Assembly: GCA_025056215.1 (NCBI GenBank)
Contig: JANWWC010000001.1
Coordinates: 558,001-622,000 of the forward strand
Origin: Cytophagales bacterium
Lineage (GTDB): Bacteria > Bacteroidota > Bacteroidia > Cytophagales > Flammeovirgaceae
DNA length: 64,000 nt
Direction: 5' to 3'
The translations under genes and the position numbers were made by a program. The notes below the pieces were generated by a model that was not told the origin of the DNA, searched no databases, and worked only from the letters and a program-made list of their open reading frames with translations. Shown here one piece after another: positions 37,654-55,012 of the stretch. Position 1 is the first letter of the stretch, and each line of letters starts with the position of its first letter.

Positions 37654-37680
37654 ATGTCGCTTAACTTAGTATCATTATGA
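37654..37680 (+). other. Possible 8-codon upstream frame overlapping the rocD start
   Basis: ATG at 37654 opens MSLNLVSL and ends in TGA at 37678-37680, so it overlaps the rocD ATG as ATGA. A small hairpin (AAGGC TTA GCCTT) lies just upstream. This could couple translation or be chance. Confidence 0.25.
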
Positions 37681-38921
37681 CAACACAAAGCATTACATCA
37701 GAACTTGCAATGGAGTTGGAGCATAAATATGGTGCTCATAACTACCACCCTATCCCAGTAGTATTAGCCAAAGGTCGAGGAGTAAAAGTATGGGATGTTG
37801 AAGGAAGAGAATATTATGATTTCTTATCGGCATACTCTGCTGTTAATCAAGGACATTGTCATCCTCGCATTATTAATGCACTCATTGAGCAAGCTCAAAC
37901 TCTTACTCTTACTTCAAGAGCTTTTTACAACGACAAACTAGGACTCTATTGCAAATACATTACTGAGTATTTTGGCTATGACCGCGTACTCCCTATGAAT
38001 ACCGGCGTAGAAGGGGGAGAAACTGCTATCAAATTAGCCAGAAAATGGGCTTACCAAATAAAAGGGGTCCCTCGTCACCATGCTAAAATTATTTTTGCAA
38101 GAAATAATTTCTGGGGAAGAACGTTGGCTGCTATTTCTTCTTCTACGGACCCCGAGAGCTATGGCAATTACGGTCCTTACATGCCAGGATTTGAGATTAT
38201 TCCTTACAACGATTTAGAAGCTCTTGAAATCGCTTTACAAGACAAAAACGTAGCTGCTTTCATGGTAGAGCCTATTCAAGGAGAAGCGGGTGTAGTAGTT
38301 CCTGATGAAGGCTATTTGCGAAAAGCATATGAGCTTTGTAAGCAAAACAACGTGCTATTTATTGCTGATGAAGTACAAACAGGTATCGGACGCACTGGAA
38401 AACTACTCGCGTGCGATTACGAAGGCTTTAAACCAGATATCCTCATTTTAGGAAAAGCACTTTCAGGCGGTACAATACCTGTTTCGGCAGTGCTCGCTCG
38501 TGATGAAATCATGCTTACCATTCGCCCTGGGCAACACGGCTCTACATATGGCGGAAATCCACTCGCTTGCGCCGTTGCCATGACTGCTTTACAAGTGCTC
38601 AAAGACGAAAAAATGACAGAAAACGCCTATCGCTTGGGCTTCATATTCCGCGAAAGAATGAATGCACTCATTCAAAAAACTAATCTTATCAAACTTGTGC
38701 GCGGAAAAGGATTGCTCAACGCTATTGTAGTGAACGATACACCCGACAGCAAAACCGCTTGGAATTTGTGTATGAATTTTAAGAAAAATGGGCTCCTGGC
38801 CAAACCTACTCATGGCAATATTATTCGTTTTGCTCCTCCGTTAGTGATTACAGAAGATCAATTGCATGAATGCTGCGATATCATAGACAAATCAGTTTTA
38901 GAATATAAAAAAGATAGCTAA
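37677..38921 (+). CDS. rocD: Ornithine--oxo-acid transaminase
   Basis: Converts ornithine and 2-oxoglutarate to glutamate-5-semialdehyde and glutamate, linking arginine and proline metabolism. 414 residues, class III aminotransferase. Motifs: [20 protein letters not shown], the PLP aspartate region [19 protein letters not shown], the PLP lysine in [18 protein letters not shown], and [15 protein letters not shown]. The ornithine transaminase group is supported by the N-terminal [22 protein letters not shown] pattern (given here in overlapping parts: [20 protein letters not shown]). It has its own promoter box and a terminator; arginine released from the cyanophycin locus at 49.9 kb could feed it. 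Confidence 0.95.
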
Positions 38922-41262: not shown

Positions 41263-43509
41263 TTAGCGGAGTTCTTCTAAAAATTGCAAACGCTGAGAAG
41301 CACGAAATTGTTGCTCTCGCAATAAATATCCCAAAGCAGAAATTCCTCTAGGATACCAAAAACCGTTCCATTTATCTTGTGGTCGGTTTCCGAGTGCTCC
41401 ATCGTTGTAAGCATCTGGATTATTTTTATTCCAGCGATAAGCGAAGATAGCAGTAGAAGGCTTCAAGCCAAACCAATAAGAAGCCACTATATCCGAAACC
41501 ATTGTTTTGCTAAACCATGTCACTGACTCTTCAGAAGAAAGATTTACTCCATAAGAACGTAAACTCTTTTGATAAGCAAGTTGGTAAGTAGTAGAGAGCA
41601 TAGGTATAATTTCTTGGATAGTAGCAGAAGAAAAGCCAGAAAGGCCTGGCAAAAACAAAGCTTCTGGAATCGTAATCGAATACTGATTCCAACCGCGAAA
41701 AGTTCTATCTAATGAAACAGGAAGGTAACCTAATTCTCCAAAAGCTTTTACAAGCGAATTTACTATCTTTCTTGCTTCAGCACGATAACGCATCGCTTGT
41801 TTATACCGCAACTTTTCATTAGCTAACTGAATACTTTCAAAATATCCTTTTCCTTCTCCATCTTTTATGCTTTTTATATCCTTTATCTCGGGGTTAGGCT
41901 CTAGTTCTTTGATAGCTAATTTTTCAAACATTTCAGCTGCCACTTCATATGCACATAACTGCTTGACTCCTAAATAAACATTTTCTGGAGATTGCTTAAT
42001 AGCGTCGTTTACATCATATGAACTCCAGCCTACACCTTTATCAGCTAATCCAGAGTCGTCTGTGTCGCGATTCACAACAGAATGCAATAAAACATCTAAC
42101 ATTCCTAAATGAGACTTTACAAATTCATCGTCAGACATAAGTTTCCAATACCAATACAAAAGCAAAGCAAAGTTACAATTCTCTTCTACTGCCATATGCG
42201 GACCAAAACTATACTCCGATGTTTCTGCTACAAAAGGATAATCTCCCACATCGTGCTCTAAAAAAGGTCCGTATTCCGATGCAGACATTCCTTCTTTATG
42301 TTGAACATTTCCCCACTCGTTTTCAAATTGCCACGTCCAAACTTCCTTTCGAGCCAAATAATCGAGCCACATATCGAGTTGGAGTTTTAACCGATAAGGC
42401 GAAAACAAAGCCATTAATTCTGTTTCATGTGCAACATCGATGGTGCTCATATGTCGAAACCTACCTTCCAACAATAAAAAGCGAGGTCTTTGCTTCTCAT
42501 CGATAAGTAAAAAAGCATTTGCATTATCTGAATGAAAAGCTAATGCGATGACCCATTTTTCTTCGGGAGCGATCTTTGAGCGCGACAAAATTTTTTCAAA
42601 CCGAGCAGATAAATCCAAATTTAACGATGCTGCTCGACGTGCATATTCGTTCACCTCTTGGATGTTGCGGAAAAAACGCGTGTAGTAAAACTTTAAATCC
42701 ATATTGTATTTTTTATCGCGAATTACCTTATCGGGGTGGTAAGCAGTGTAAGCAACAGTATCAATGAAATTTTGTCCATTTGCTAAAGAAAAATCAACTT
42801 TCAATGTATGAAAAGAGTTAATTTTGATATGCTGATGCTTTTGATGACTAAGCGAAACTAACGAAAGTAATGTTTTTTCAGAGGTCCCCTCGTCTTTAAA
42901 ATAAAGTTCATTTCTTTTTCTTCCGTCAAAACGCCAAGAGGGTACCGCCGACCCTCTCCCGTATTCATAAGCAATTTTTTGAAACCCTACTTTGATATTT
43001 CCTTCTACATACTTACCCGATCTGTTAAAAATTTCTGAAAGAATGTAGTAAACAGGAGCAATTTGAACTTTTAGTTTAGTAGTATCCCCTAAAGAATCGC
43101 AAGGAGTAAAAGGAGAGACAATTGTTACTATTACGAGAAGCCCATCAGGAGTAGTTCCTGAAAGTTGTACGGATGTCATCCCTAACCTAATTTGCTGATT
43201 AAGAAGATATTGTGCTCCATAGGGCAATCCGCATGTCCGAAAACAATACCTTCCTTTTGAGGTCTGCACTTCTAATAATAGTTCGCTGAATGCATCAGAA
43301 TCAAACCCAAGCGCACCTGTATGAATACCCTGTTCGCCAGTCAGAAAAGAAAAAGAAAAACGGCTTCCATTTCTTGCATTAAGGATAGATAATTGAGTAG
43401 TATCTGTAAAGGGAATTAGCGGAATTTGAGTATCTAAAAAAAAACGAGAGTTTTGCGAATATATCACATCATAAATTAACAGTAAAAAGACTACTATTTT
43501 CCATTTCAT
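41263..43509 (-). CDS. Secreted glycoside hydrolase, GH52-like
   Basis: 748 residues with a signal peptide (KIVVFLLLIYDVIYSQ), so exported to the periplasm or beyond. The best match I can recall is family GH52 (beta-xylosidases): FYYTRFFRNIQEVNEYA, LLEGRFRHMSTIDVAHETEL, EYGPFLEHDVGDYPF, GWSSYDVNDAIKQSPENVYLG (split here as GWSSYDVNDA and ENVYLG) and the C-terminal FWYPRGISALGYL. The acidic residues expected for catalysis (Glu in LLEGRF, Asp in SSYDV) are present. A related (alpha/alpha)6-barrel family is possible. It lies 15 bases after the aldose epimerase gene and 2 bases before the sensor kinase, in one operon. A role in releasing a sugar that the epimerase then handles fits the context. 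Confidence 0.6.
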   Translation of the reverse strand: MKWKIVVFLLLIYDVIYSQNSRFFLDTQIPLIPFTDTTQLSILNARNGSRFSFSFLTGEQGIHTGALGFDSDAFSELLLEVQTSKGRYCFRTCGLPYGAQYLLNQQIRLGMTSVQLSGTTPDGLLVIVTIVSPFTPCDSLGDTTKLKVQIAPVYYILSEIFNRSGKYVEGNIKVGFQKIAYEYGRGSAVPSWRFDGRKRNELYFKDEGTSEKTLLSLVSLSHQKHQHIKINSFHTLKVDFSLANGQNFIDTVAYTAYHPDKVIRDKKYNMDLKFYYTRFFRNIQEVNEYARRAASLNLDLSARFEKILSRSKIAPEEKWVIALAFHSDNANAFLLIDEKQRPRFLLLEGRFRHMSTIDVAHETELMALFSPYRLKLQLDMWLDYLARKEVWTWQFENEWGNVQHKEGMSASEYGPFLEHDVGDYPFVAETSEYSFGPHMAVEENCNFALLLYWYWKLMSDDEFVKSHLGMLDVLLHSVVNRDTDDSGLADKGVGWSSYDVNDAIKQSPENVYLGVKQLCAYEVAAEMFEKLAIKELEPNPEIKDIKSIKDGEGKGYFESIQLANEKLRYKQAMRYRAEARKIVNSLVKAFGELGYLPVSLDRTFRGWNQYSITIPEALFLPGLSGFSSATIQEIIPMLSTTYQLAYQKSLRSYGVNLSSEESVTWFSKTMVSDIVASYWFGLKPSTAIFAYRWNKNNPDAYNDGALGNRPQDKWNGFWYPRGISALGYLLREQQFRASQRLQFLEELR

Positions 43510-45170: not shown

Positions 45171-46502
45171 CTAATAGCCAGGATTTTGCACCATTGCCGA
45201 ATTAAAAAGCATCTCAGAGGTAGGAATAGGCAACAGTTGCTTAAACGATTCAAATCCAGACGGTTTTGAACTCAAGACATCAACAGCTCGGTTGGTTCGA
45301 ACTAAATCAAAGAAGCGATGTCCTTCAAAAGAAAACTCCAACCTTCTTTCTTTTTCGATTTCAGCTAAATACTCTGCATAACTCAGCGTAGTAGAAGTGA
45401 GAAGAGGAACTCCTGCTCGTTGTTTAATCTTGTTGATATCCGCCACAATCTGAGTTCGGCTGCCGTTGGATTGAGCTAATGCTTCTGCACGAATCAGATA
45501 CATTTCTGCCAAACGAAGCATTATTACATCATCTACGCCGTTAGGAGTAGCATACTTCGTCACTGCAATACTTTTACGCACAGAATCAGCAGTAGTATAA
45601 GCGTTTAGAACTGGAGTTGTTCTAATTACGTTTGTGCCGGCACCCGACGTAAATCTGCCAATACTGTTGGGTGCTCCAGCATTAAATTCTACTGCGAAGA
45701 TGACTTCTTCATTGCGTTTTTCTCTAAAAATAGCAGTGTAATTAGGCAACAACTTATATCCAAAACGTGCACTATCGATTAAAATAGAGGCTTGCTCGAT
45801 AGCAAGTGGATAATTTTTAGCATACAACGCTACGCGAGCAAGCAGTGCGCGCACTGCTCCTTCCGAAGCTCGAAAGTAAGCATTCCCTTTTCCACGCGGA
45901 ACGTTGGGAAGCGCTGCTTGCAATTCGCTAATAATAAAATTATAGACTTGATCAGCAGTGCTTCTAGGAGTGTTTTGCGCTGATTTAGTGGCATCTAACT
46001 CTACATTTCCCTTCGTACGCAAAGGCACTCCTCCGAAACATTTCACCAAATTAAAATAATGAAATGCTCTCAAGAAACGAAGTTCAGCTTCAATACGAGG
46101 ACGATCGGCTGCTGTCGCCCCTGAAGTAGCTAATCTATCTAAAATAATATTAATGCTATTAATAGCCGAGTAGCTAGTTTCCCAAATAGAACGAACCACA
46201 GCCGTAGTAGGATCATAAGCATTTTGACTGATTGTAAAATACTGACCACGCTCCAAAGAAGGATCTCCAGTGGCGTTGTCAGCAGCTAATTCTCCCAAAA
46301 TCACAGTTTCAAAATGAAATCCGCGCGAACGAAGGTTGGAATAACAGCCTGTTAACGCTGCTTCCACCCCATCGGCAGTACGAAAAACGTCATCAATATC
46401 TACTTGGTCGGTTGGCTTAGTATCTACAATTCGCTCACAGGAAGTTGCTACTAGCAACATTCCTACCGACAAGAGGGTGAAATATTTTTGAGTATATTGC
46501 AT
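45171..46502 (-). CDS. SusD/RagB family outer-membrane nutrient-binding lipoprotein
   Basis: 443 residues with a lipoprotein signal (LLSVGMLLVATSC, cysteine at about 22). SusD hallmarks: N-terminal DVFRTADGVEAALTGCYSNL, the helical TPR-like core (AELRFLRAFHYFNLVKCFGG), GAVRALLARVALYAKNYPLA, and the C-terminal MLRLAEMYLIRAEALAQSNG, LAEIEKERRLEFSFEGHRFFDLVRT (in parts: EIEKERRLEFSFEGHRF). It forms the lid of the TonB-dependent SusC porin encoded just upstream (31-base gap) and captures a substrate at the cell surface. The substrate is not known; no enzyme gene follows directly in this pair. Confidence 0.94.
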   Translation of the reverse strand: MQYTQKYFTLLSVGMLLVATSCERIVDTKPTDQVDIDDVFRTADGVEAALTGCYSNLRSRGFHFETVILGELAADNATGDPSLERGQYFTISQNAYDPTTAVVRSIWETSYSAINSINIILDRLATSGATAADRPRIEAELRFLRAFHYFNLVKCFGGVPLRTKGNVELDATKSAQNTPRSTADQVYNFIISELQAALPNVPRGKGNAYFRASEGAVRALLARVALYAKNYPLAIEQASILIDSARFGYKLLPNYTAIFREKRNEEVIFAVEFNAGAPNSIGRFTSGAGTNVIRTTPVLNAYTTADSVRKSIAVTKYATPNGVDDVIMLRLAEMYLIRAEALAQSNGSRTQIVADINKIKQRAGVPLLTSTTLSYAEYLAEIEKERRLEFSFEGHRFFDLVRTNRAVDVLSSKPSGFESFKQLLPIPTSEMLFNSAMVQNPGY

Positions 46503-46533
46503 GATTATTAAGTTTCGTTATTAGTGAATAAAA

Positions 46534-49500
46534 TTAAAATCCTATATTTAAGCCAAGTGTATAAGTTCTTGCTTGCGGATATGTATAGCGATCTTGCCCT
46601 TGAATAGTAGCAGTGGGTCCGCTAAAGTTCACTTCTGGATCTAACCCGCTATAATTTGTAAAGGTTAGTAAGTTTTGAGTCATAATGTAAACTCTTAGCG
46701 AAGCAATTTTTATTTTTTCAAGAGAAGACTTTGGAAGATTATATCCTATAGAAAAGTTTTTCAGACGCAAGAAAGAACCATCTTCCAACGCATACGAGCT
46801 TTTACGAATGGTAGCCTGCCCTCCGAAAGGAGTTCCAGCACGTGGCACGTAAGTAACATCGCCAGGCTTCTGCCATCTATCTAAAACAGCTTCTCCTTTA
46901 TTTCTACCGACACTACTCGGATCATCTAACAAATAGCGGTTTTGATTATGAATTAGGTTTCCGTAAGTCCATTGGAAGAAAATATTCATATCAAAATTTT
47001 TGTATTTAAAATCGTTAGTAAATCCGCCGAAGTGTCTTGGGTTAGGGTCATAAAATACCCTATCATTAAGAGCGATATTAGAATTATCGGGATCAATTTT
47101 TCCGTCTCCATTTTTATCCAAATAAATAGGATCGCCAGTAGCAGGATCCACTCCTTGATATTGGAGTAAGAAAAAGGTCCCAATAGGTTGCCCTACTACG
47201 AAAACTCCTCCAGCGCGATTGCTTCCAGAAAGTCCATCAGCATTATTAGCAAACTGAAAATCTGGCGCGTTAGGATACATAGAAAGGAGTTTGTTTCGGT
47301 TAAAAGTAATGTTGAAAGAGGAGGTCCAAGAAAAACTCTCAGTTTTAACATTCGCAGTATTGAAAGATACTTCAAGACCTCTGTTTTCTAACGAACCTAC
47401 GTTATCCAAATAACTTGTGAAGCCTGTCGAACTCGCAATGGGTACTGAGAACAAAATACCTGTAGTGTGCTTATAGTACAAATCTACAGTAGCTGTTACG
47501 CGATCCTTCAATAAACCTAAATCTACACCAACGTTGTACTGCTCAGTTTGTTCCCAACGCAAGCGAGGATTCGCCAAGCGAGTAATCACAAGACCTCCTG
47601 CATTTACAGTAGTAGCAGAGGAATAAGTAGAACCTGTTCCGTAGGTAGAAAGGAAGCTAAAGTTACCAATTCTATCGTTTCCTTGAATTCCCCAGCCTCC
47701 TCGAATTTTAAACTCACTAATGGTCTTTTTGAGAGATTGCCAAAATCCTTCTTCCGATACTCTCCACCCTAACGACACACCAGGAAAGTTTCCATAACGA
47801 TTTTTCTTACCAAAGCGAGAAGAGCCATCAATACGATAATTTAAAGTCCAGAGATATTTAGCTTTATAATCGTACTGAATCCGTCCAAAGAAAGACTGGA
47901 ATCCGACATCTACTGCCGTAGCCCTTCCAAAGATAGGGTCTCCATCTTGGTATTGGATAAGGTCGGTAGGGAAGGTTCTCGATTCCGAAGTGAGGAATCT
48001 ATCTCTCATGCGCTCAAAACTCCATCCACCCATTAAAGTCACATTGTGAGCATCATTAAAGGTTTCGGAATAACTCAAGTACGTTTGCTGTAACAAACGA
48101 ATCTGATTAGAAAAAGCACCTAGTCCATCAGCTGTTGCGGCTAATGCTTTATTCAAAAGCAAAGGACGGAAAGCATGGTCGCGTACAGTCGCATAATCGA
48201 TGCCCCATTGATGTTTCAAGGTGAGTTTATCCGTAATATCCCAGTCTACATAAGCATTTGTGATATTTCGGAAGTTTTCTGTGAGAAAAATAGGAGCTTT
48301 TACCGTAACGACAGGGTTTAGAGCAATGTTTCCAAGAGTAGTACCTGCTACACCATTAGTTGTGTTAAAAGTTCCATCAGGATTGTAAATAGGAGCAGTA
48401 GGAAGTGCAAACATAGCATTGTTGATAGGCGCTCGATCGTCGTTATCAGACTGTTGACGATCGTTGAATGAAAAGGTGTTTCCTGTTTTCAATCCGATGC
48501 GAACTTTGTCATTAATTTCATGGTCTATATTCAAACGCTGCGTGTATCGCTCGTAACTTGTTCCCCGTAAAATACCATCTTGACGGAAATAACCCACCGA
48601 AGTAAAAAACTTGGTTTTTTCTTTTCCGCCACTCATACTTATTTCGTGGTTTTGGATAGGAGCTTCAAATCCTCTGCGAAAGATTTGCTTTTGCCAATCA
48701 GTGTTATTATTGTTACCATCAAAGTTAGATACTGTACCTGTAGCTGCTACTACGTCTGGAGAAGCAGCGAATTGTTTATATTGCTCTGCATTCAATAAAG
48801 GATAGTAGCGGCGCGGTTCTTGAATTCCATAAGAAGTGTTCACATTAATTTTTGTTTTCCCTTTAGCACCGCTTTTTGTTGTGATCAGCACAACGCCGTT
48901 TGCTCCACGCGCTCCGTAAATAGCGGCCGCTGCAGCGTCTTTCAGTACTTCTATAGACTCAATATCTGCAGGGTTTAAGTCGGAGAGCGCATTTGTAGGC
49001 TGAACGTTTCCGAAACCACTACTACCTACCGTTCCCGAAGTCATCGGAACGCCGTCTATCACATAGAGCGGTTCGTTAGCAGTTCCACTAATAGAACTTC
49101 CTCCGCGCACTTTTACAGCAAAAGCAGCTCCTGGGGTACCAGATGCAGATTGAATTTGAACTCCTGCTGTTCTACCTGTTAATGCTCCATCGATGCTTGG
49201 CGTAACTGTTTGTACTAATACTTCAGATTTTACAGATGAAACAGATCCTGTAATGAGTTGTTTGCTCGAGGCACCATATCCTACGACAATTACTTCTTCC
49301 ATGAGCTTTATATCTTCCTCCATTACCACATTTACTTCCGTTTGGTTATCACTAAGCGCTATTTCCTTTGTCTGATATCCTACAAAAGAGAATACCAAAA
49401 CAGCATTTTCTGGAACACTCAAATTAAAAACTCCATCCATATCGGTGATTGTACCGTTAGTAGTACCTTTCACCAATACATTAACGCCAGGCAAACCTTG

Positions 49501-49605
49501 TGGAGAATCTTTTGATGTAACTTTCCCCCTTATCATTCTGTCTTGTGCATATACAAACGCGCAAGCCAGATAAATCATTAAGAAAGCAATGAGCTTTTTA
49601 AACAT
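46534..49605 (-). CDS. SusC/RagA family TonB-linked outer-membrane transporter
   Basis: 1023 residues. Signal peptide (KLIAFLMIYLACAFVYAQ), then a CarboxypepD_reg-like domain (about 22-105, IRGKVTSKDSPQGLPGVNVL, FSFVGYQTKEI) of the SusC type. The TonB box region EEVIVVGYG is followed by the plug domain (about 120-225, IDGALTGRTAGVQIQSASG, DAAAAAIYGARGANGVVLITT) and the 22-strand barrel to the end (TYTLGLNIGF). It imports a large substrate with its SusD partner, powered by TonB. The absence of a long N-terminal STN domain means no transmembrane anti-sigma signalling is expected. Upstream are 295 bases with no gene. Confidence 0.96.
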   Translation of the reverse strand: MFKKLIAFLMIYLACAFVYAQDRMIRGKVTSKDSPQGLPGVNVLVKGTTNGTITDMDGVFNLSVPENAVLVFSFVGYQTKEIALSDNQTEVNVVMEEDIKLMEEVIVVGYGASSKQLITGSVSSVKSEVLVQTVTPSIDGALTGRTAGVQIQSASGTPGAAFAVKVRGGSSISGTANEPLYVIDGVPMTSGTVGSSGFGNVQPTNALSDLNPADIESIEVLKDAAAAAIYGARGANGVVLITTKSGAKGKTKINVNTSYGIQEPRRYYPLLNAEQYKQFAASPDVVAATGTVSNFDGNNNNTDWQKQIFRRGFEAPIQNHEISMSGGKEKTKFFTSVGYFRQDGILRGTSYERYTQRLNIDHEINDKVRIGLKTGNTFSFNDRQQSDNDDRAPINNAMFALPTAPIYNPDGTFNTTNGVAGTTLGNIALNPVVTVKAPIFLTENFRNITNAYVDWDITDKLTLKHQWGIDYATVRDHAFRPLLLNKALAATADGLGAFSNQIRLLQQTYLSYSETFNDAHNVTLMGGWSFERMRDRFLTSESRTFPTDLIQYQDGDPIFGRATAVDVGFQSFFGRIQYDYKAKYLWTLNYRIDGSSRFGKKNRYGNFPGVSLGWRVSEEGFWQSLKKTISEFKIRGGWGIQGNDRIGNFSFLSTYGTGSTYSSATTVNAGGLVITRLANPRLRWEQTEQYNVGVDLGLLKDRVTATVDLYYKHTTGILFSVPIASSTGFTSYLDNVGSLENRGLEVSFNTANVKTESFSWTSSFNITFNRNKLLSMYPNAPDFQFANNADGLSGSNRAGGVFVVGQPIGTFFLLQYQGVDPATGDPIYLDKNGDGKIDPDNSNIALNDRVFYDPNPRHFGGFTNDFKYKNFDMNIFFQWTYGNLIHNQNRYLLDDPSSVGRNKGEAVLDRWQKPGDVTYVPRAGTPFGGQATIRKSSYALEDGSFLRLKNFSIGYNLPKSSLEKIKIASLRVYIMTQNLLTFTNYSGLDPEVNFSGPTATIQGQDRYTYPQARTYTLGLNIGF

Positions 49606-49900
49606 CTGTTTGTAGATTTAAATTGAGAAATAATTGAAAACTATAAAAATGAGTTATTAAATTACAAGCGAAATTTGAGAAAAAGTAAAAACTATTGGAG
49701 GAGATAAACAAGTGCAAAAGTGTGAATATCTTTTCATAGCCGTAAAGAATTTAGGTTGATATTGCAAAAGAAGAAAGAAAAATCATTTAATCAAAAAAAT
49801 TTAAAAAAACATCAAAAAAAGTACGAACGATTTAAAAAACTTAATCCTTAATTATAATATTTGCAAGCCAAACATTCTTTCAACTTAATATTTGTCGAGT
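49606..49900. other. Intergenic region between divergent SusC and cyanophycinase genes
   Basis: 295 bases of AT-rich DNA. It must hold the promoters of both flanking transcription units, but I see only near-matches to the -7 box (CACTTTTG on the minus strand, near 49715; AATATTTG on the plus strand, near 49860). No gene, tRNA or clear hairpin. Confidence 0.4.
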
Positions 49901-50800
49901 ATGTTAAAGAACTATTTAAAAAAAGCAGTTTTAGCAACTACTTTATGCTACATGTACGCTTGTACAACCAATAGCCCATCGAACAAAGAACTTCCTAGCG
50001 AGTCTTCTACAGAAGTCTCTTCCAACAACAAAGGGAAACTTTTTATTATTGGAGGGGGACCTCGCCCAGTTTCTCTAATCAAAAGGCTCGTAGATGCTTC
50101 TGGAATTCGAAACGGAGGTTACGTGGTTATTCTTCCAATGGCAAGCGCCGACCCTGCAGACACCGTTCTTTTTTACAGCAGAAGGCAATTCGATTCTTTA
50201 GGCATTAAAAACATTGTAGCTTTTTCCTTCAAAAAAGGAGAAAAACCTGCTCCTTCTAAAATTGACTCCCTTTCAAAAGCTACTATCATTTATATCTCAG
50301 GCGGAGATCAAAACAAATTTATGGATATCGTAGGAGGTACTGAAATTGAAAAAGCCATTCTTACTGCTTATCAAAACGGAGCCACCATAGCAGGTACAAG
50401 TGCGGGAGCAGCTGTCATGAGTGAGAAAATGATCACAGGAAATGCTTTAAAGTATCCTGATTATGAATCTACCTTTGAAGTAATCGAGGCTAAAAACCTC
50501 GATATTGGACGCGGACTCGGATTTATCAAGCGCGGAATTATCGACCAGCATTTTTTGATTCGTAGCAGGCATAACCGTCTCATCACTTCTATTATAGAAT
50601 ATCCTGACCTGATTGGAGTTGGAATTGACGAATCGACAGCTATTTTGGTTCAGGGAGATTCGGCAGAGGTAGTAGGTCTTTCACAAGTGATGGTGTTTGA
50701 AAATCCAGAAAGATCTGCATATCAAAAAAATGGGAAACTAGGGGCGCGCAACTTGCGAATTCATTTGTTAGTCGAAGGAGAAAAATTCTTTTTGCGCTAA
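49901..50800 (+). CDS. cphB: Cyanophycinase, lipoprotein form (peptidase S51 family)
   Basis: 299 residues from ATG 49901; an in-frame TTG three codons before is less likely. A lipoprotein signal ends CYMYAC, so the enzyme faces the periplasm or surface. The core (about 45-299) is cyanophycinase: KGKLFIIGGGPRP, VVILPMASADPAD, IYISGGDQNKFM, the nucleophile Ser in TIAGTSAGAAVMS, GIIDQHFLIRSRHNRL and GIDESTAILV. Cyanophycinases cut the Asp-Arg polymer cyanophycin to beta-Asp-Arg dipeptides. Another S51 peptide activity cannot be excluded. The downstream YfcC-family transporter (42 bases away) fits uptake of the products. Confidence 0.9.
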   Translation: MLKNYLKKAVLATTLCYMYACTTNSPSNKELPSESSTEVSSNNKGKLFIIGGGPRPVSLIKRLVDASGIRNGGYVVILPMASADPADTVLFYSRRQFDSLGIKNIVAFSFKKGEKPAPSKIDSLSKATIIYISGGDQNKFMDIVGGTEIEKAILTAYQNGATIAGTSAGAAVMSEKMITGNALKYPDYESTFEVIEAKNLDIGRGLGFIKRGIIDQHFLIRSRHNRLITSIIEYPDLIGVGIDESTAILVQGDSAEVVGLSQVMVFENPERSAYQKNGKLGARNLRIHLLVEGEKFFLR

Positions 50801-50842
50801 AAAGAAAGTTTTCTTTTTATTTTCTAATTTCAAAGTACGCAT

Positions 50843-52228
50843 ATGAAAAAAATACCTGATACTCTCGTAATTGCTTTTAGCATTCTTGTCGTTTTTATGA
50901 TATTAACTTGGGTCATTCCTGCGGGAGAATATCAACGCGTAGAGAAAGATGGACGCATGATAGTAGTTCCTGGCTCTTATCAACCTACTCAACAAGTTCC
51001 ACAGAATTTGGGGGCTGTTTTACTCGCTCCTATTCGTGGTTTTGTTTCAGCTTCTGAAATTATCGGATTTGTACTTCTGATTGGAGGAGCTTTTGGAATT
51101 ATCAATGCTACAGGTGCTATTACGGCTTCTCTTCAAAGCATTATTCAAGCAAGTGCCAACAAGCCTTATCTCAAAAAAGTTATTATTCCGCTGGTAATGT
51201 TTGTGTTTTCATTAGCGGGTGCTACGTTTGGAATGAGCGAAGAAAACTTAGTATTTATTCTTATTACTGTACCGTTAGCTATTTCATTAGGATACGATTC
51301 CATCGTTGGAGTTGCTATTCCTTTTATTGCAACGGGAGCAGGATTTGCAGGAGCTTTTAGCAATCCTTTCACTATCGGAATTGCGCAAAAAATTGCTGAC
51401 GTTCCTATTTTCAGTGGATGGGAATACAGGCTTATCGTTTGGTTTCTCATGACAGTTGCAGCAATAATATGGGTAATGGCATATGCTAATCGAGTAGAAA
51501 AAAATCCGCAATACAGTATGATGTATGAAATCGATAGAACCGTAGGCTGGACGGAATCCGCGCATTCTGCTCAACTCGAGTTTACTTTTAGAAGGAAACT
51601 CGTATTAGCTATTTTTTTTATAGGACTCATTTTACTCATCGTAGGAGTAAGCATCTGGGATTGGCATATCAACGAAATTGCCGCTCTATTTTTGGGCATG
51701 GGAATAGCCTCTGCCATAGCATACCGCATCAAATTAGACAAAATGATTGATGCCTTTATTCATGGCGCCAAAGACATGGTTCACGCTTCCCTGGTGATTG
51801 CACTTTCAAAGGGTATTTTGCTAATTGCTACTGATGGAAAAATTATTGATACTATTCTTTACGGTGTAGCTGGACTTATGGATGGACTTCCTAAATTTGT
51901 AACAGTAGAAATGATGTTTTTTGTACAGAGCTTTCTTAATTTTTTTGTCCCTTCTGGCTCTGGGCAGGCTGCTCTTACAATGCCTATCATGGCTCCCTTG
52001 AGCGATTTACTTGGCATTACCCGACAAACAGCAGTCTTAGCATTCCAATTCGGCGATGGACTTTCCAATATGTTTATTCCTACAAGCGGAGTTACTATGG
52101 GAATTCTCGCAATTGCAAAAATCCCTTATGACATTTGGATCAAATGGATATGGAAACTTATGCTTGTTTTTTTTCTTATAGCATTTTTATGCTTAATTCC
52201 TCCTGTAACGATGTTTGAATGGACATAA
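50843..52228 (+). CDS. YfcC family membrane transporter
   Basis: 461 residues with about 11-12 membrane helices. Recognised by the N-terminal LTWVIPAGEYQRVEKDGRMIVVPGSYQ style (in parts: TWVIPAGEYQRV, VVPGSYQ), FGMSEENLVFILI, IPFIATGAGFAGAFSNPFTI, and the late FLNFFVPSGSGQAALTMPIM. YfcC/ArcD-like carriers are thought to move amino acids or short peptides. Standing directly after a cyanophycinase it may import beta-Asp-Arg or arginine; this is inference. It is followed after 17 bases by the SiaB-like gene. Confidence 0.88.
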   Translation: MKKIPDTLVIAFSILVVFMILTWVIPAGEYQRVEKDGRMIVVPGSYQPTQQVPQNLGAVLLAPIRGFVSASEIIGFVLLIGGAFGIINATGAITASLQSIIQASANKPYLKKVIIPLVMFVFSLAGATFGMSEENLVFILITVPLAISLGYDSIVGVAIPFIATGAGFAGAFSNPFTIGIAQKIADVPIFSGWEYRLIVWFLMTVAAIIWVMAYANRVEKNPQYSMMYEIDRTVGWTESAHSAQLEFTFRRKLVLAIFFIGLILLIVGVSIWDWHINEIAALFLGMGIASAIAYRIKLDKMIDAFIHGAKDMVHASLVIALSKGILLIATDGKIIDTILYGVAGLMDGLPKFVTVEMMFFVQSFLNFFVPSGSGQAALTMPIMAPLSDLLGITRQTAVLAFQFGDGLSNMFIPTSGVTMGILAIAKIPYDIWIKWIWKLMLVFFLIAFLCLIPPVTMFEWT

Positions 52229-52245
52229 AATAAGCACTTGTATGT

Positions 52246-52818
52246 ATGCTTGAAAAATTGTACGAGTATTATAAAAAAATTCCACCAGAAACATGGTATG
52301 AAGATAAGAATCTCGCTCATTCTCATGTTTTTTTTAATGGCATTATTACACAAAATGTAATTATGTGCTTCACAGAAAAAATTTTGAAAATTTTAAACAG
52401 TTCAGATGAAATCACTAACAAATTAGCATTTGGAATAGGGGTAGAACTTTCTCAAAACATACAAATCCATTCCGTCGAACGCGCTTTAGATAAAAACGAC
52501 CAAAGAATTCATGGAAAAGGTATTTTGTTGTGTGAAAAGTTTCCTTCATTTCTTGTTTTGAGCGCAGGAAACGTTATCAAAAAGGAAACTGTCAAATTTC
52601 TCGATGATAAATGTAAGTTTATTAATCATCTTAACCATGAGCAACTCCGCGAATATTACAATATGGAAAGAAGGCAGTCGCTTATTACAAAACGAAAAGG
52701 AGGAAATGTTGGGTTAATAGATATGGCAAAGAAATCAGGAAATCCTCTTAATATTCACTTTCATACAATTGATGAGAAATATTCTTTTTTTGCGCTTGGT
52801 GTTCGCATCAATTCTTGA
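52246..52818 (+). CDS. SiaB-family protein kinase (DUF6272)
   Basis: 190 residues, cytoplasmic. The ATP-binding GHKL-like features are visible: ELSQNIQIHSVER (Glu/Asn box), and GGNVGLIDMAKKSG (glycine box near residue 155-170). In Pseudomonas aeruginosa SiaB phosphorylates SiaC at a threonine, and the PP2C-type SiaA reverses it; SiaC then controls the diguanylate cyclase SiaD. Here only SiaB and SiaC are in view, with a 52-base gap between them. The upstream YfcC gene ends 17 bases before, suggesting one transcript. A short ATG at 52242 is out of frame. Confidence 0.85.
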   Translation: MLEKLYEYYKKIPPETWYEDKNLAHSHVFFNGIITQNVIMCFTEKILKILNSSDEITNKLAFGIGVELSQNIQIHSVERALDKNDQRIHGKGILLCEKFPSFLVLSAGNVIKKETVKFLDDKCKFINHLNHEQLREYYNMERRQSLITKRKGGNVGLIDMAKKSGNPLNIHFHTIDEKYSFFALGVRINS

Positions 52819-52870
52819 TAATTTGCATTTGTTTCAAAATTGTATTGTACCTTTAACTAACAAGTCTTAA

Positions 52871-53248
52871 ATGGAGGACCTATTTATTGAAGGAAAAGGA
52901 TTTATTCCTAAAGTAGAATTAAACGCCCAAACTGGCGTACTTAATTTTTCAGGGCAATCCTATCACGAATATACAGACGAATTTTTCGATCCTATATTTG
53001 CGTGGATAAGCCAGTATCTAAAAGAGCCTGGTAAAAAAATTACAGTAAATTTTCGAATGACGTATTTTAATACAGCCTCTTCAAAGTGTTTTCTTGAAAT
53101 ATTAGAGATGCTAAAAGCTTATCAGAATAACTGCGGAGGGCAAATCACCGTAAATTGGTACTATCAAGCCAATGACTATGATATGTTAGAAACAGGAGAA
53201 GATTTTATCATAGATACCCAACTGAACATCAATCTTATTCCTTATTAA
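52871..53248 (+). CDS. SiaC-family regulatory phosphoprotein (DUF1987)
   Basis: 125 residues. The domain covers the whole protein: IEGKGFIPKVELNAQTGVL, SGQSYHEYTDEFFDP, and FRMTYFNTASSKCFLEIL. Threonine 68 in YFNTASSK stands exactly at the position of the phosphorylated Thr68 of P. aeruginosa SiaC as I recall it. Such proteins act as switch partners whose binding to a target depends on phosphorylation. The target here is unknown because no diguanylate cyclase (GGDEF) gene is nearby. It ends the plus-strand gene run that starts with cphB. Confidence 0.88.
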   Translation: MEDLFIEGKGFIPKVELNAQTGVLNFSGQSYHEYTDEFFDPIFAWISQYLKEPGKKITVNFRMTYFNTASSKCFLEILEMLKAYQNNCGGQITVNWYYQANDYDMLETGEDFIIDTQLNINLIPY

Positions 53249-53296: not shown

Positions 53297-55012
53297 TTAC
53301 TTTGTTTCGATGAGACGTTGCTCTACAATTTTTTGTTTTAATATAAAAGAGTCTTCAGATCCTTGCTCAAGCGCTTTTTTCCAGTGACTAACAGCTTCTT
53401 CTTTGCGATTCAATTTAAATAAAACATCTCCGTAATGCTCTATAATAGTAGCACTAGGGGAAGAAGAAAGCGACAGCGCTCGTGAAATATATTTTTCAGC
53501 CTCTTCATAATTGCCCAAAGCATACAACACCCACCCATACGTATCTAAATAAGTTGGATTTTCAGGCGCTAAGGCTACTAATTGAGAAGCCATCGAGGCA
53601 GCAAATTCCAAATTTTCTCGTCGTAAAGCTAAGTAATAGCTCCAATTATTAAGTACGTATAAGTTATTCTTATCATGATTCATTACAATCCGATACGATT
53701 CATCACATTTTTCATAATTTTTCAAATTGTGATAAACATCACCGAGTTGCGCATAAAACTGCAATTGGACAATTTCTTGATTGTCAGAAATCATTAAACC
53801 CGCTTTCAAAGACTCTAATGCTTCGTGGTATTTTTTTTTAGCTACATAACCAATTCCATTATATAAGTAAAATAGCGGCTCATTAGGAAAATAAGAAATT
53901 GCTTCTTCTGAATGTAAAATGAGAGAATCATAATTAGAAAGTAAATATTCGATTCCAAGCAACTGCAGCCATAGTCTATGATTATTACCATCTATATGAA
54001 GAGCTTTTTGATAAGCAGCAAGTGCTTCTAGTATGTTGTTATTAGCACTAAAAAAATCTCCTAACACAATATGAACTTGACTATTTTCAGGATAAGCATT
54101 TGCCAACGCTTTTGCTAAAGCTAATCCCTGAAGTCTATCTTTATCAGTAGACTTGTATTTCAAAATATTTACCATGATTTCTATTTTTTTTTCTATTTCT
54201 AACTCTGAATTTTTCAATAAAAATTCTAAATCAGAGTATTCTACATCGGAATAAGATGAATAACCTTTTATACTGAGCTCTAAAGAACGAAGTTCAGGAT
54301 TATCAGGAAATTTTTGAATATACTTAGAAAGAAGCACTGCTGCTTCTTCTTTGATATCAGACCTAATGAGTAATTTAATATAATTAACCACAGAGCTTTC
54401 TACTTCCCTTCCTAAAAGGAGAATGCGCTCCATTTCTTTATTAGCAGCTTCGAGATTTTTCAACTGCAAATAAGTTCTTTGTTTACGCAATGCTATCTTT
54501 TCATCAAATCCAAAGAGAGATTCATATTTTTCACATACTTTTATGATATCTTCTAACTTTTTGAAAGACTCATAAAGATCAATCAACCCTACAAAATAGT
54601 CTTTTGTCGGATTAATTTTAATGGCTTGCTTTAAGCATAGTTCGGATTTTTTTAAATTTCTCTGGCGATTATAAAGCGAACTTAACCAACTCCACCAAAG
54701 CGCTTTTGAATTGTCTAATGCTAAGGCTTTTTCTGCAAACTCGATTGCTTTTTCAATTTGATTCATCTGATAGTAGCATCTTGCAATTTCGTATTTTACT
54801 GTAGCATTTGCGCGATAAGAATCAATTTCCAAAAACTTATTAAGAGCTTGAGAAAAATTATCTGTTATTTTGTATTTTATAGCTTCTATAAATAAAGCTT
54901 CAAGATACTCTTGTGGTACTTCTTTTGGTAGATTGGCTCCTTTTTGGGCGTAAACCCAAGCATTTAAAGTTATAAAAACAGATAAGCTTAAAATATGAAG
55001 GTTCATTTTCAC
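53297..55012 (-). CDS. Secreted TPR-repeat protein
   Basis: 571 residues with a signal peptide (LHILSLSVFITLNAWVYAQ). It is almost entirely tetratricopeptide repeats from about residue 35 to 560; clear units include IEKAIEFAEKALALDNSKAL, LEALAAYQKALHIDGNNHRL, YHEALESLKAGLMIS, YEEAEKYISRALSLSSSPSA and KEEAVSHWKKALEQG. TPR proteins scaffold protein complexes; in Bacteroidota such proteins often support envelope functions. It overlaps the sugar nucleotidyltransferase gene by 4 bases, so it is the third gene of cdsA - nucleotidyltransferase - TPR. Partner unknown. Confidence 0.88.
   Translation of the reverse strand: MKMNLHILSLSVFITLNAWVYAQKGANLPKEVPQEYLEALFIEAIKYKITDNFSQALNKFLEIDSYRANATVKYEIARCYYQMNQIEKAIEFAEKALALDNSKALWWSWLSSLYNRQRNLKKSELCLKQAIKINPTKDYFVGLIDLYESFKKLEDIIKVCEKYESLFGFDEKIALRKQRTYLQLKNLEAANKEMERILLLGREVESSVVNYIKLLIRSDIKEEAAVLLSKYIQKFPDNPELRSLELSIKGYSSYSDVEYSDLEFLLKNSELEIEKKIEIMVNILKYKSTDKDRLQGLALAKALANAYPENSQVHIVLGDFFSANNNILEALAAYQKALHIDGNNHRLWLQLLGIEYLLSNYDSLILHSEEAISYFPNEPLFYLYNGIGYVAKKKYHEALESLKAGLMISDNQEIVQLQFYAQLGDVYHNLKNYEKCDESYRIVMNHDKNNLYVLNNWSYYLALRRENLEFAASMASQLVALAPENPTYLDTYGWVLYALGNYEEAEKYISRALSLSSSPSATIIEHYGDVLFKLNRKEEAVSHWKKALEQGSEDSFILKQKIVEQRLIETK

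Follow-up and report, generated by a model that had tools for sequence, protein, structure and literature searches.

Do genes that follow each other closely on one strand work together, or have they come to lie side by side? The question is raised by a stretch of 64,000 nucleotides from a Cytophagales genome (the window), in which genes for a cyanophycinase (cphB), a carrier (yfcC), a kinase (siaB) and a phosphoprotein (siaC) form one run. A preliminary description of this DNA had read the run as a pathway for scavenging cyanophycin, to which a SiaB/SiaC pair (SiaBC), a switch normally tied to cyclic dimeric guanosine monophosphate (cyclic-di-GMP), has been joined. We think it probable that the window holds a cyanophycin-scavenging unit side by side with one of six scattered SiaBC pairs, which is not part of it (Table 1).

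In the scenario that we favour, cyanophycin, a nitrogen storage polymer, would probably be made by other microbes and be used as food. SusC/SusD would act on it at the outer membrane, the exported CphB would cut it to beta-aspartyl-arginine (beta-Asp-Arg), YfcC would carry this dipeptide into the cytosol, and an isoaspartyl peptidase encoded elsewhere in the genome (best candidate C12:11918) would split it there. In this lineage the SiaBC pair would have come to follow yfcC at a distance of 17 bases, probably sharing its transcript. SiaB would phosphorylate SiaC on threonine 68 (T68), and one of many SpoIIE-type phosphatases would remove the phosphate. The enzyme activity, the substrate of the carrier, the shared transcript and the phosphatase partner are what we infer in this scenario.

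Table 1. Coordinates of the features discussed in the window
Feature	Coordinates	Strand	Remarks
rocD, ornithine aminotransferase	37677..38921	+	TIGR01885 674 bits, cut-off 378; 11 kb from cphB
SusD-type protein, SusC partner	45171..46502	-	SusD_RagB 108 bits
SusC-type TonB-dependent transporter	46534..49605	-	CarbopepD_reg_2 and Plug domains; divergent from cphB
cphB	49901..50800	+	probable exported cyanophycinase (S51); ATG start, TTG start at 49892 also possible
yfcC	50843..52228	+	DcuC/YfcC-family carrier; proposed beta-Asp-Arg importer, substrate inferred
siaB	52246..52818	+	SiaB-family protein kinase (DUF6272)
siaC	52871..53248	+	SiaC-family phosphoprotein, threonine at position 68

The four-gene run and its conservation

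The open reading frames of the window bear out the gene order, strands, coordinates and gaps (42, 17 and 52 bases) of the preliminary description, and a gene for a TPR protein on the opposite strand (53297-55012) closes the run. That no terminator separates the genes is likewise borne out. A scan of the plus strand found no terminator-like site in the three gaps; the two sites in the run fall within genes, at 51295-51314 in yfcC and 52923-52938 in siaC, and the number of such sites in the region is near chance (10 found, 7.0 expected). We also scanned for the pattern TTTG-N17-23-TAnnTTTG, which we take to be the Bacteroidota promoter form. Exact matches are enriched in the window (13, with 5.0 expected and none of 100 shuffles reaching 13). 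None of them lies in the three gaps, and one lies within yfcC (51200-51230). Because only 17 bases separate yfcC from siaB and the exact pattern is missing there, the four genes likely share one transcript.

The spacing of the run is ordinary for this DNA, since 16 of the 25 gaps between same-strand neighbours in the window are 50 bases or less under a mechanical choice of reading frames. Promoter forms with one mismatch number 10 on the plus strand between 45000 and 54300, compared with 4.4 expected from simulation. One is upstream of cphB (49860-49894), one is inside the end of yfcC (52134-52166), about 80 bases upstream of siaB, one overlaps the start codon of siaB (52214-52248) and one is in the gap between siaB and siaC (52822-52855). 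Given these forms, siaB or siaC may have an internal start of its own.

Conservation was read in two sets. The first consists of 58 genomes of the order, this one included and no other of the same genus among them; 12 of the 58 have a cphB match at E < 1e-60, and we read the loci of the 11 relatives over 16-17 kb each, with Pfam checks on selected members. The second consists of the best 80 of 263 database matches to a cphB alignment, where several loci are cut by contig ends. Since L108 and L243, each on a contig of 79,944 bases, seem to be one and the same (Raineya orbicola), the 91 loci represent at most 90 distinct ones.

The pairing of cphB and yfcC is conserved. In the relatives yfcC follows cphB directly in 4 of 11 loci and one gene later in 6, hence in 10 of 11; it is found in 36 of the 80 database loci, in 33 of them directly downstream. 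The joining of SiaBC to this pair is not conserved. No SiaB or SiaC profile match occurs in any of the 11 loci of relatives (16-17 kb each, where 0.15 SiaC would be expected by chance), and SiaC occurs in one of the 80 database loci. The preliminary description had named a SiaBC pair placed elsewhere in most relatives as a finding that would refute it; in the relatives at hand, none of the same genus, this is the case. On present evidence, SiaBC looks like a lineage-specific neighbour of the scavenging genes.

The single database locus with SiaC (L265, from the Cytophagia metagenome-assembled genome PH2015_04U_30_13) was considered as a recurrence of cphB beside SiaBC and rejected as an independent one; it is probably due to chance. 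It reads cphB-siaB-siaC and lacks yfcC; 169 bases separate cphB from siaB, and exact TTTG-TAnnTTTG patterns stand before both siaB and siaC (three in the locus versus 1.2 expected, a number that 21 of 200 shuffles reach). Its SiaBC belongs to a different group, since the proteins of the window rank 39th of 48 among the matches of its SiaC and 34th of 34 among those of its SiaB. In two further database loci, L204 and L213, the SiaB profile weakly matched 676-residue proteins (E 3e-5 and 5e-5) without SiaC, which by their length are not SiaB.

SiaB/SiaC pairs and their neighbours

What kind of proteins are SiaB and SiaC here? SiaB passes the NCBIfam model for SiaB-family kinases (NF038262, 115 bits, cut-off 85) and scores 55 bits on the SiaB equivalog model, below its cut-off of 225. 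SiaC scores 145 bits on Pfam PF09345 and 83 bits on the SiaC equivalog model, below the cut-off of 150. Since both fall short of the equivalog cut-offs, we regard them by profile score as members of the families and not as strict equivalogs of the Pseudomonas proteins. Their key residues are in place. E67, Q70 and N71, which we take to be the N-box of the ATPase fold, are invariant in all seven SiaB of the genome, and the profile of these seven matches chain A of 6kko at 3e-30; by sequence, 6kko matches SiaC too. The residues Y65, F66, N67 and T68 (YFNT) and S70 and S71 are the same in each of the eight SiaC of the genome, and the available part of PMC7647112 gives T68 as the phosphorylated residue of Pseudomonas SiaC.

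The eight SiaC and seven SiaB genes are scattered over the genome. Six pairs (that of the window, L016, L018, L019, L021 and L022) are accompanied by two lone SiaC (L017, L020) and one lone SiaB (L023), which is divergent from a Cache-HAMP-SpoIIE gene. Genes adjoining the other pairs encode YidC and a metallophosphatase, a fatty acid desaturase, a GH3 glycosidase, an SPFH protein, or peptide deformylase and AnmK. The 2.83 Mb genome has 35 SpoIIE matches, one with an internal stop. None of the 35 lies within the window, and no SpoIIE gene, that is, no SiaA-type phosphatase, stands beside its SiaBC pair.

Relatives offer no clear ortholog of this pair at a fixed place. In a SiaC tree of 48 rows the SiaC of the window falls in a group of 19 rows (support 93/99), its exact place within the group being unsettled, and the group contains stand-alone SiaBC pairs as well as SiaC genes for which no SiaB was recognised. 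The branch leading to the SiaB of the window is long (1.86), and its placement is likewise unsettled. We looked at the surroundings of SiaC in 40 regions from 10 relatives, a part of the SiaC matches listed. The SiaC closest to that of the window are in SiaBC pairs or alone, at other places; in L126, L131, L135, L138, L145 and L156 no SiaB was recognised, even by profile.

Could the four genes nevertheless form one functional operon, in which SiaBC controls cyanophycin uptake, for example through SiaC binding YfcC, gated by the carbon or nitrogen state of the cell? We think this unlikely. The 17-base gap, the gaps free of terminator-like sites and exact promoter patterns, and the intact T68 motif of SiaC and E/Q/N motif of SiaB would all suit an operon. 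So would two statements in the accessible portions of the literature: Pseudomonas SiaABCD depends on carbon availability (PMC7647112), and an eLife paper on the structure of SiaD raises the possibility that proteins encoded next to DUF1987 proteins are modulated by them (PMC8457831). A last supporting point is that in G001, G003 and G014 another SiaBC pair has a SpoIIE phosphatase on one side and an ABC transporter on the other. However, the cphB loci of all 11 relatives do without SiaB and SiaC, and the other pairs in this genome adjoin genes of various kinds, so that a neighbour does not predict a role.

The block of SpoIIE, SiaB, SiaC and ABC transporter found in these three genera (L133, L128 and L159) also invites a more general idea. 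It consists of a sensor SpoIIE phosphatase, SiaBC and a transporter of about 1040 residues; its domains come from Pfam for the member in G014, which also has a TerB match short of the cut-off, and from BLAST for the others, with identities of 51-57% for the phosphatase and 61-68% for the transporter over nearly the whole protein. In a fourth genus (G006, L142) SiaB-SiaC-ABC occurs without the phosphatase. It is conceivable, if rather improbable, that SiaB and SiaC of Cytophagales have been rewired to membrane transport, with SiaC controlling the adjacent carrier, YfcC here and the ABC transporter in the block.

A probable cyanophycin-scavenging unit

The family calls of the preliminary description for all four genes agree with the profile scores (Pfam, NCBIfam). 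CphB passes the cyanophycinase model TIGR02069 (164 bits, cut-off 126.6), scores 83 bits on Peptidase_S51 and is matched by sequence by the solved cyanophycinases 7uqv, 3en0 and 7uqw. Eight homologs show no variation in GTSAGAA and further S51 blocks, and the serine of the GTSAGA motif is presumably the catalytic one. The N-terminus is hydrophobic and ends in a weak lipobox (MYAC), so it is plausible that CphB is a lipoprotein. A hydrophobic N-terminus was found in all 73 scored cphB proteins by a crude rule, the other 18 of 91 having failed the pattern and length filter; 22 of the 73 were scored as lipobox-like under a crude rule, which fails to pick up some evident lipoboxes. CphB is thus probably an exported cyanophycinase, which would cleave cyanophycin to beta-Asp-Arg.

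What happens to the dipeptide? No isoaspartyl peptidase gene lies beside cphB in the window, but the genome has two PF01112 genes at other places. One of them, C12:11918, is 57-59% identical to four isoaspartyl peptidases (IaaA) encoded in the clusters of relatives, and is our best candidate for the enzyme that splits beta-Asp-Arg. An Asparaginase_2/IaaA gene is present in the cphB loci of 10 of the 11 relatives and in 15 of the 80 database loci, and all four cluster enzymes inspected start directly at the enzyme domain, without a signal-like N-terminus. If the first enzyme is exported and the second is cytosolic, a carrier for the dipeptide is needed, and YfcC is the gene present. With 377 bits on DcuC, YfcC is a member of the DcuC family; it scores 398 bits on the YfcC equivalog model NF008611 (basic amino acid antiporter), below the cut-off of 500. 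From the need for such a carrier we infer that YfcC would import beta-Asp-Arg. An exported cyanophycinase with uptake of its products, the pathway of the preliminary description, is therefore supported by context: the hydrophobic N-termini, YfcC and IaaA each in 10 of the 11 loci of relatives, and cluster IaaA without a signal.

The SusC/SusD pair at 45171-49605 lies outside the coordinates of the preliminary description, which omitted it. It probably belongs to the unit, judging from its homologs. SusC is found in the cphB loci of 8 of 11 relatives and in 54 of 80 database loci (7 and 51 when the alignment has to span 300 residues or more), and SusD in those of 7 relatives, with identities to the SusD of the window of 31-34% in six and 28% in the seventh (L117). 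We searched the SusC of the window in eight genomes. Its best match in G013 is the SusC of the cphB locus, with 740 bits and the next at 592 among 105 matches, and the same holds in G014, with 737 bits and the next at 638 among 113. The G014 protein in turn finds the SusC of the window as the best match in this genome (739 bits), a reciprocal best match; the next protein aligns in pieces, the best of 150 bits and three summing to about 310.

Other genes of these neighbourhoods are harder to place. Homologs of rocD are found in the cphB loci of 7 of 11 relatives and in 1 of 80 database loci, and the membership of rocD in the unit is uncertain. Large proteins with S51 and secretion-tail domains lie near cphB at L110:5863-7872 and L111:3010-5097 (Pfam in these two), with BLAST matches to such proteins in 8 of 11 loci of relatives and 35 of 80 database loci; they are possibly second extracellular peptidases. 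On the side of SusC/SusD opposite cphB there is also a two-component system, and beside it and an aldose epimerase gene a 748-residue protein with a GH52 match (41266-43509).

One could argue that the unit turns over the cell's own cyanophycin instead of scavenging it, but we give this little credence. CphB has an export signal, and within the window, the part of the genome searched for it, cyanophycin synthetase is matched by none of the seven open reading frames of at least 700 residues, the size expected of it; all seven were compared with Pfam and four also with NCBIfam. In favour of own turnover, PMC10206079 states that genomes with both a cyanophycinase and a cyanophycin synthetase usually have the two genes in one cluster.

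Several points weigh against a scavenging unit that is independent of SiaBC. One is the likely shared transcript, judged from the 17-base gap and its lack of an exact promoter pattern. The chance of finding SiaBC on the same strand within 2 kb behind the cphB-yfcC pair is about 0.0025 with seven pairs and 0.0021 with six, figures calculated after the fact, so that selection may have linked them in this lineage. The 58 genomes hold no other member of the genus, so conservation is read at longer range. As for scavenging itself, the synthetase search covered the reading frames of the window and not the whole genome. The reading frame of C12:11918 has alternative starts, which makes its cytosolic location uncertain, and the second IaaA of the genome, C9:83870, has a signal-like N-terminus. 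In G003 the SusC of the cphB locus scores 410 bits with the SusC of the window, whose best match there scores 593. Finally, an aldose epimerase gene and a glycosidase-like gene adjoin SusC/SusD, which makes a sugar substrate possible for this pair.

Cyclic-di-GMP, known systems and significance

The tie of SiaBC to cyclic-di-GMP fails in this genome and in this order. The genome has no GGDEF match, in a search that was positive in 8 of 14 control genomes. SiaC is present in 45 of the 58 genomes and GGDEF in two, namely G011, which is 77% complete and has SiaC, and G046, which has a partial match and no SiaC. Of the 45 genomes with SiaC, 44 thus have no GGDEF match, which excludes a SiaD-like target there within what Pfam GGDEF and the assemblies can reveal; in this order SiaBC does not seem to be coupled to cyclic-di-GMP. 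An action of SiaBC through cyclic-di-GMP on the Pseudomonas model, for which family membership speaks, is contradicted so largely by these counts that it is hardly credible, barring a gene lost from an assembly that is 99.5% complete or an unrecognisable cyclase. With no diguanylate cyclase found, the target of SiaC would be something else.

The scavenging unit itself resembles systems that have been described. A cyanophycin utilization locus has been proposed by Ben Hania et al. for strain L21-Spi-D4, and PMC10206079, in the part available, cites it together with a cluster of Flammeovirga pacifica WPAGA1. As in our unit, the cyanophycinase gene is clustered there with a transporter and the locus is proposed to act on external polymer; our relatives resemble it further, with an isoaspartyl peptidase in the cluster (10 of 11). 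Compared through this citing paper, the window differs in having SusC/SusD and YfcC and in having its isoaspartyl peptidase genes elsewhere. In Citromicrobium sp. JLT1363 the gene of a TonB-dependent transporter lies near that of a cyanophycinase, and from this context the transporter has likewise been proposed for cyanophycin (PMC3400609); unlike in the window, there is no Bacteroidota SusC/SusD pair, and YfcC is not mentioned in the portion of that paper at hand. For Dyadobacter, cyanophycinase and SusD genes are both listed in the available part of PMC11573002, the one report that we found to join the two terms. We found no literature on cyanophycinase together with YfcC. The literature on cyanophycin with TonB-dependent or SusC transporters was examined in part, and earlier reports of such loci may exist.

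With SiaABCD of Pseudomonas aeruginosa, as the available text of PMC7647112 and PMC8457831 describes it, the window shares an adjacent SiaB-family kinase and SiaC-family protein with T68. It lacks an adjacent SiaA and SiaD, the genome lacks a GGDEF match, and the scores are below the equivalog cut-offs. We found no report on SiaC as a partner switch in Bacteroidota or on SpoIIE partner switching in Cytophagales.

What does the locus tell us? The scavenging unit would be a concrete, testable route by which Bacteroidota could eat cyanophycin, in which SusC/SusD would serve a peptide-like polymer. For SiaBC, knowledge from Pseudomonas does not tell the target of SiaC in an order where 45 of 58 genomes have SiaC and one of these has GGDEF. 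Genes adjacent to SiaC are candidates for its target, and the bold idea that SiaC may act on adjacent transporters is worth a test.

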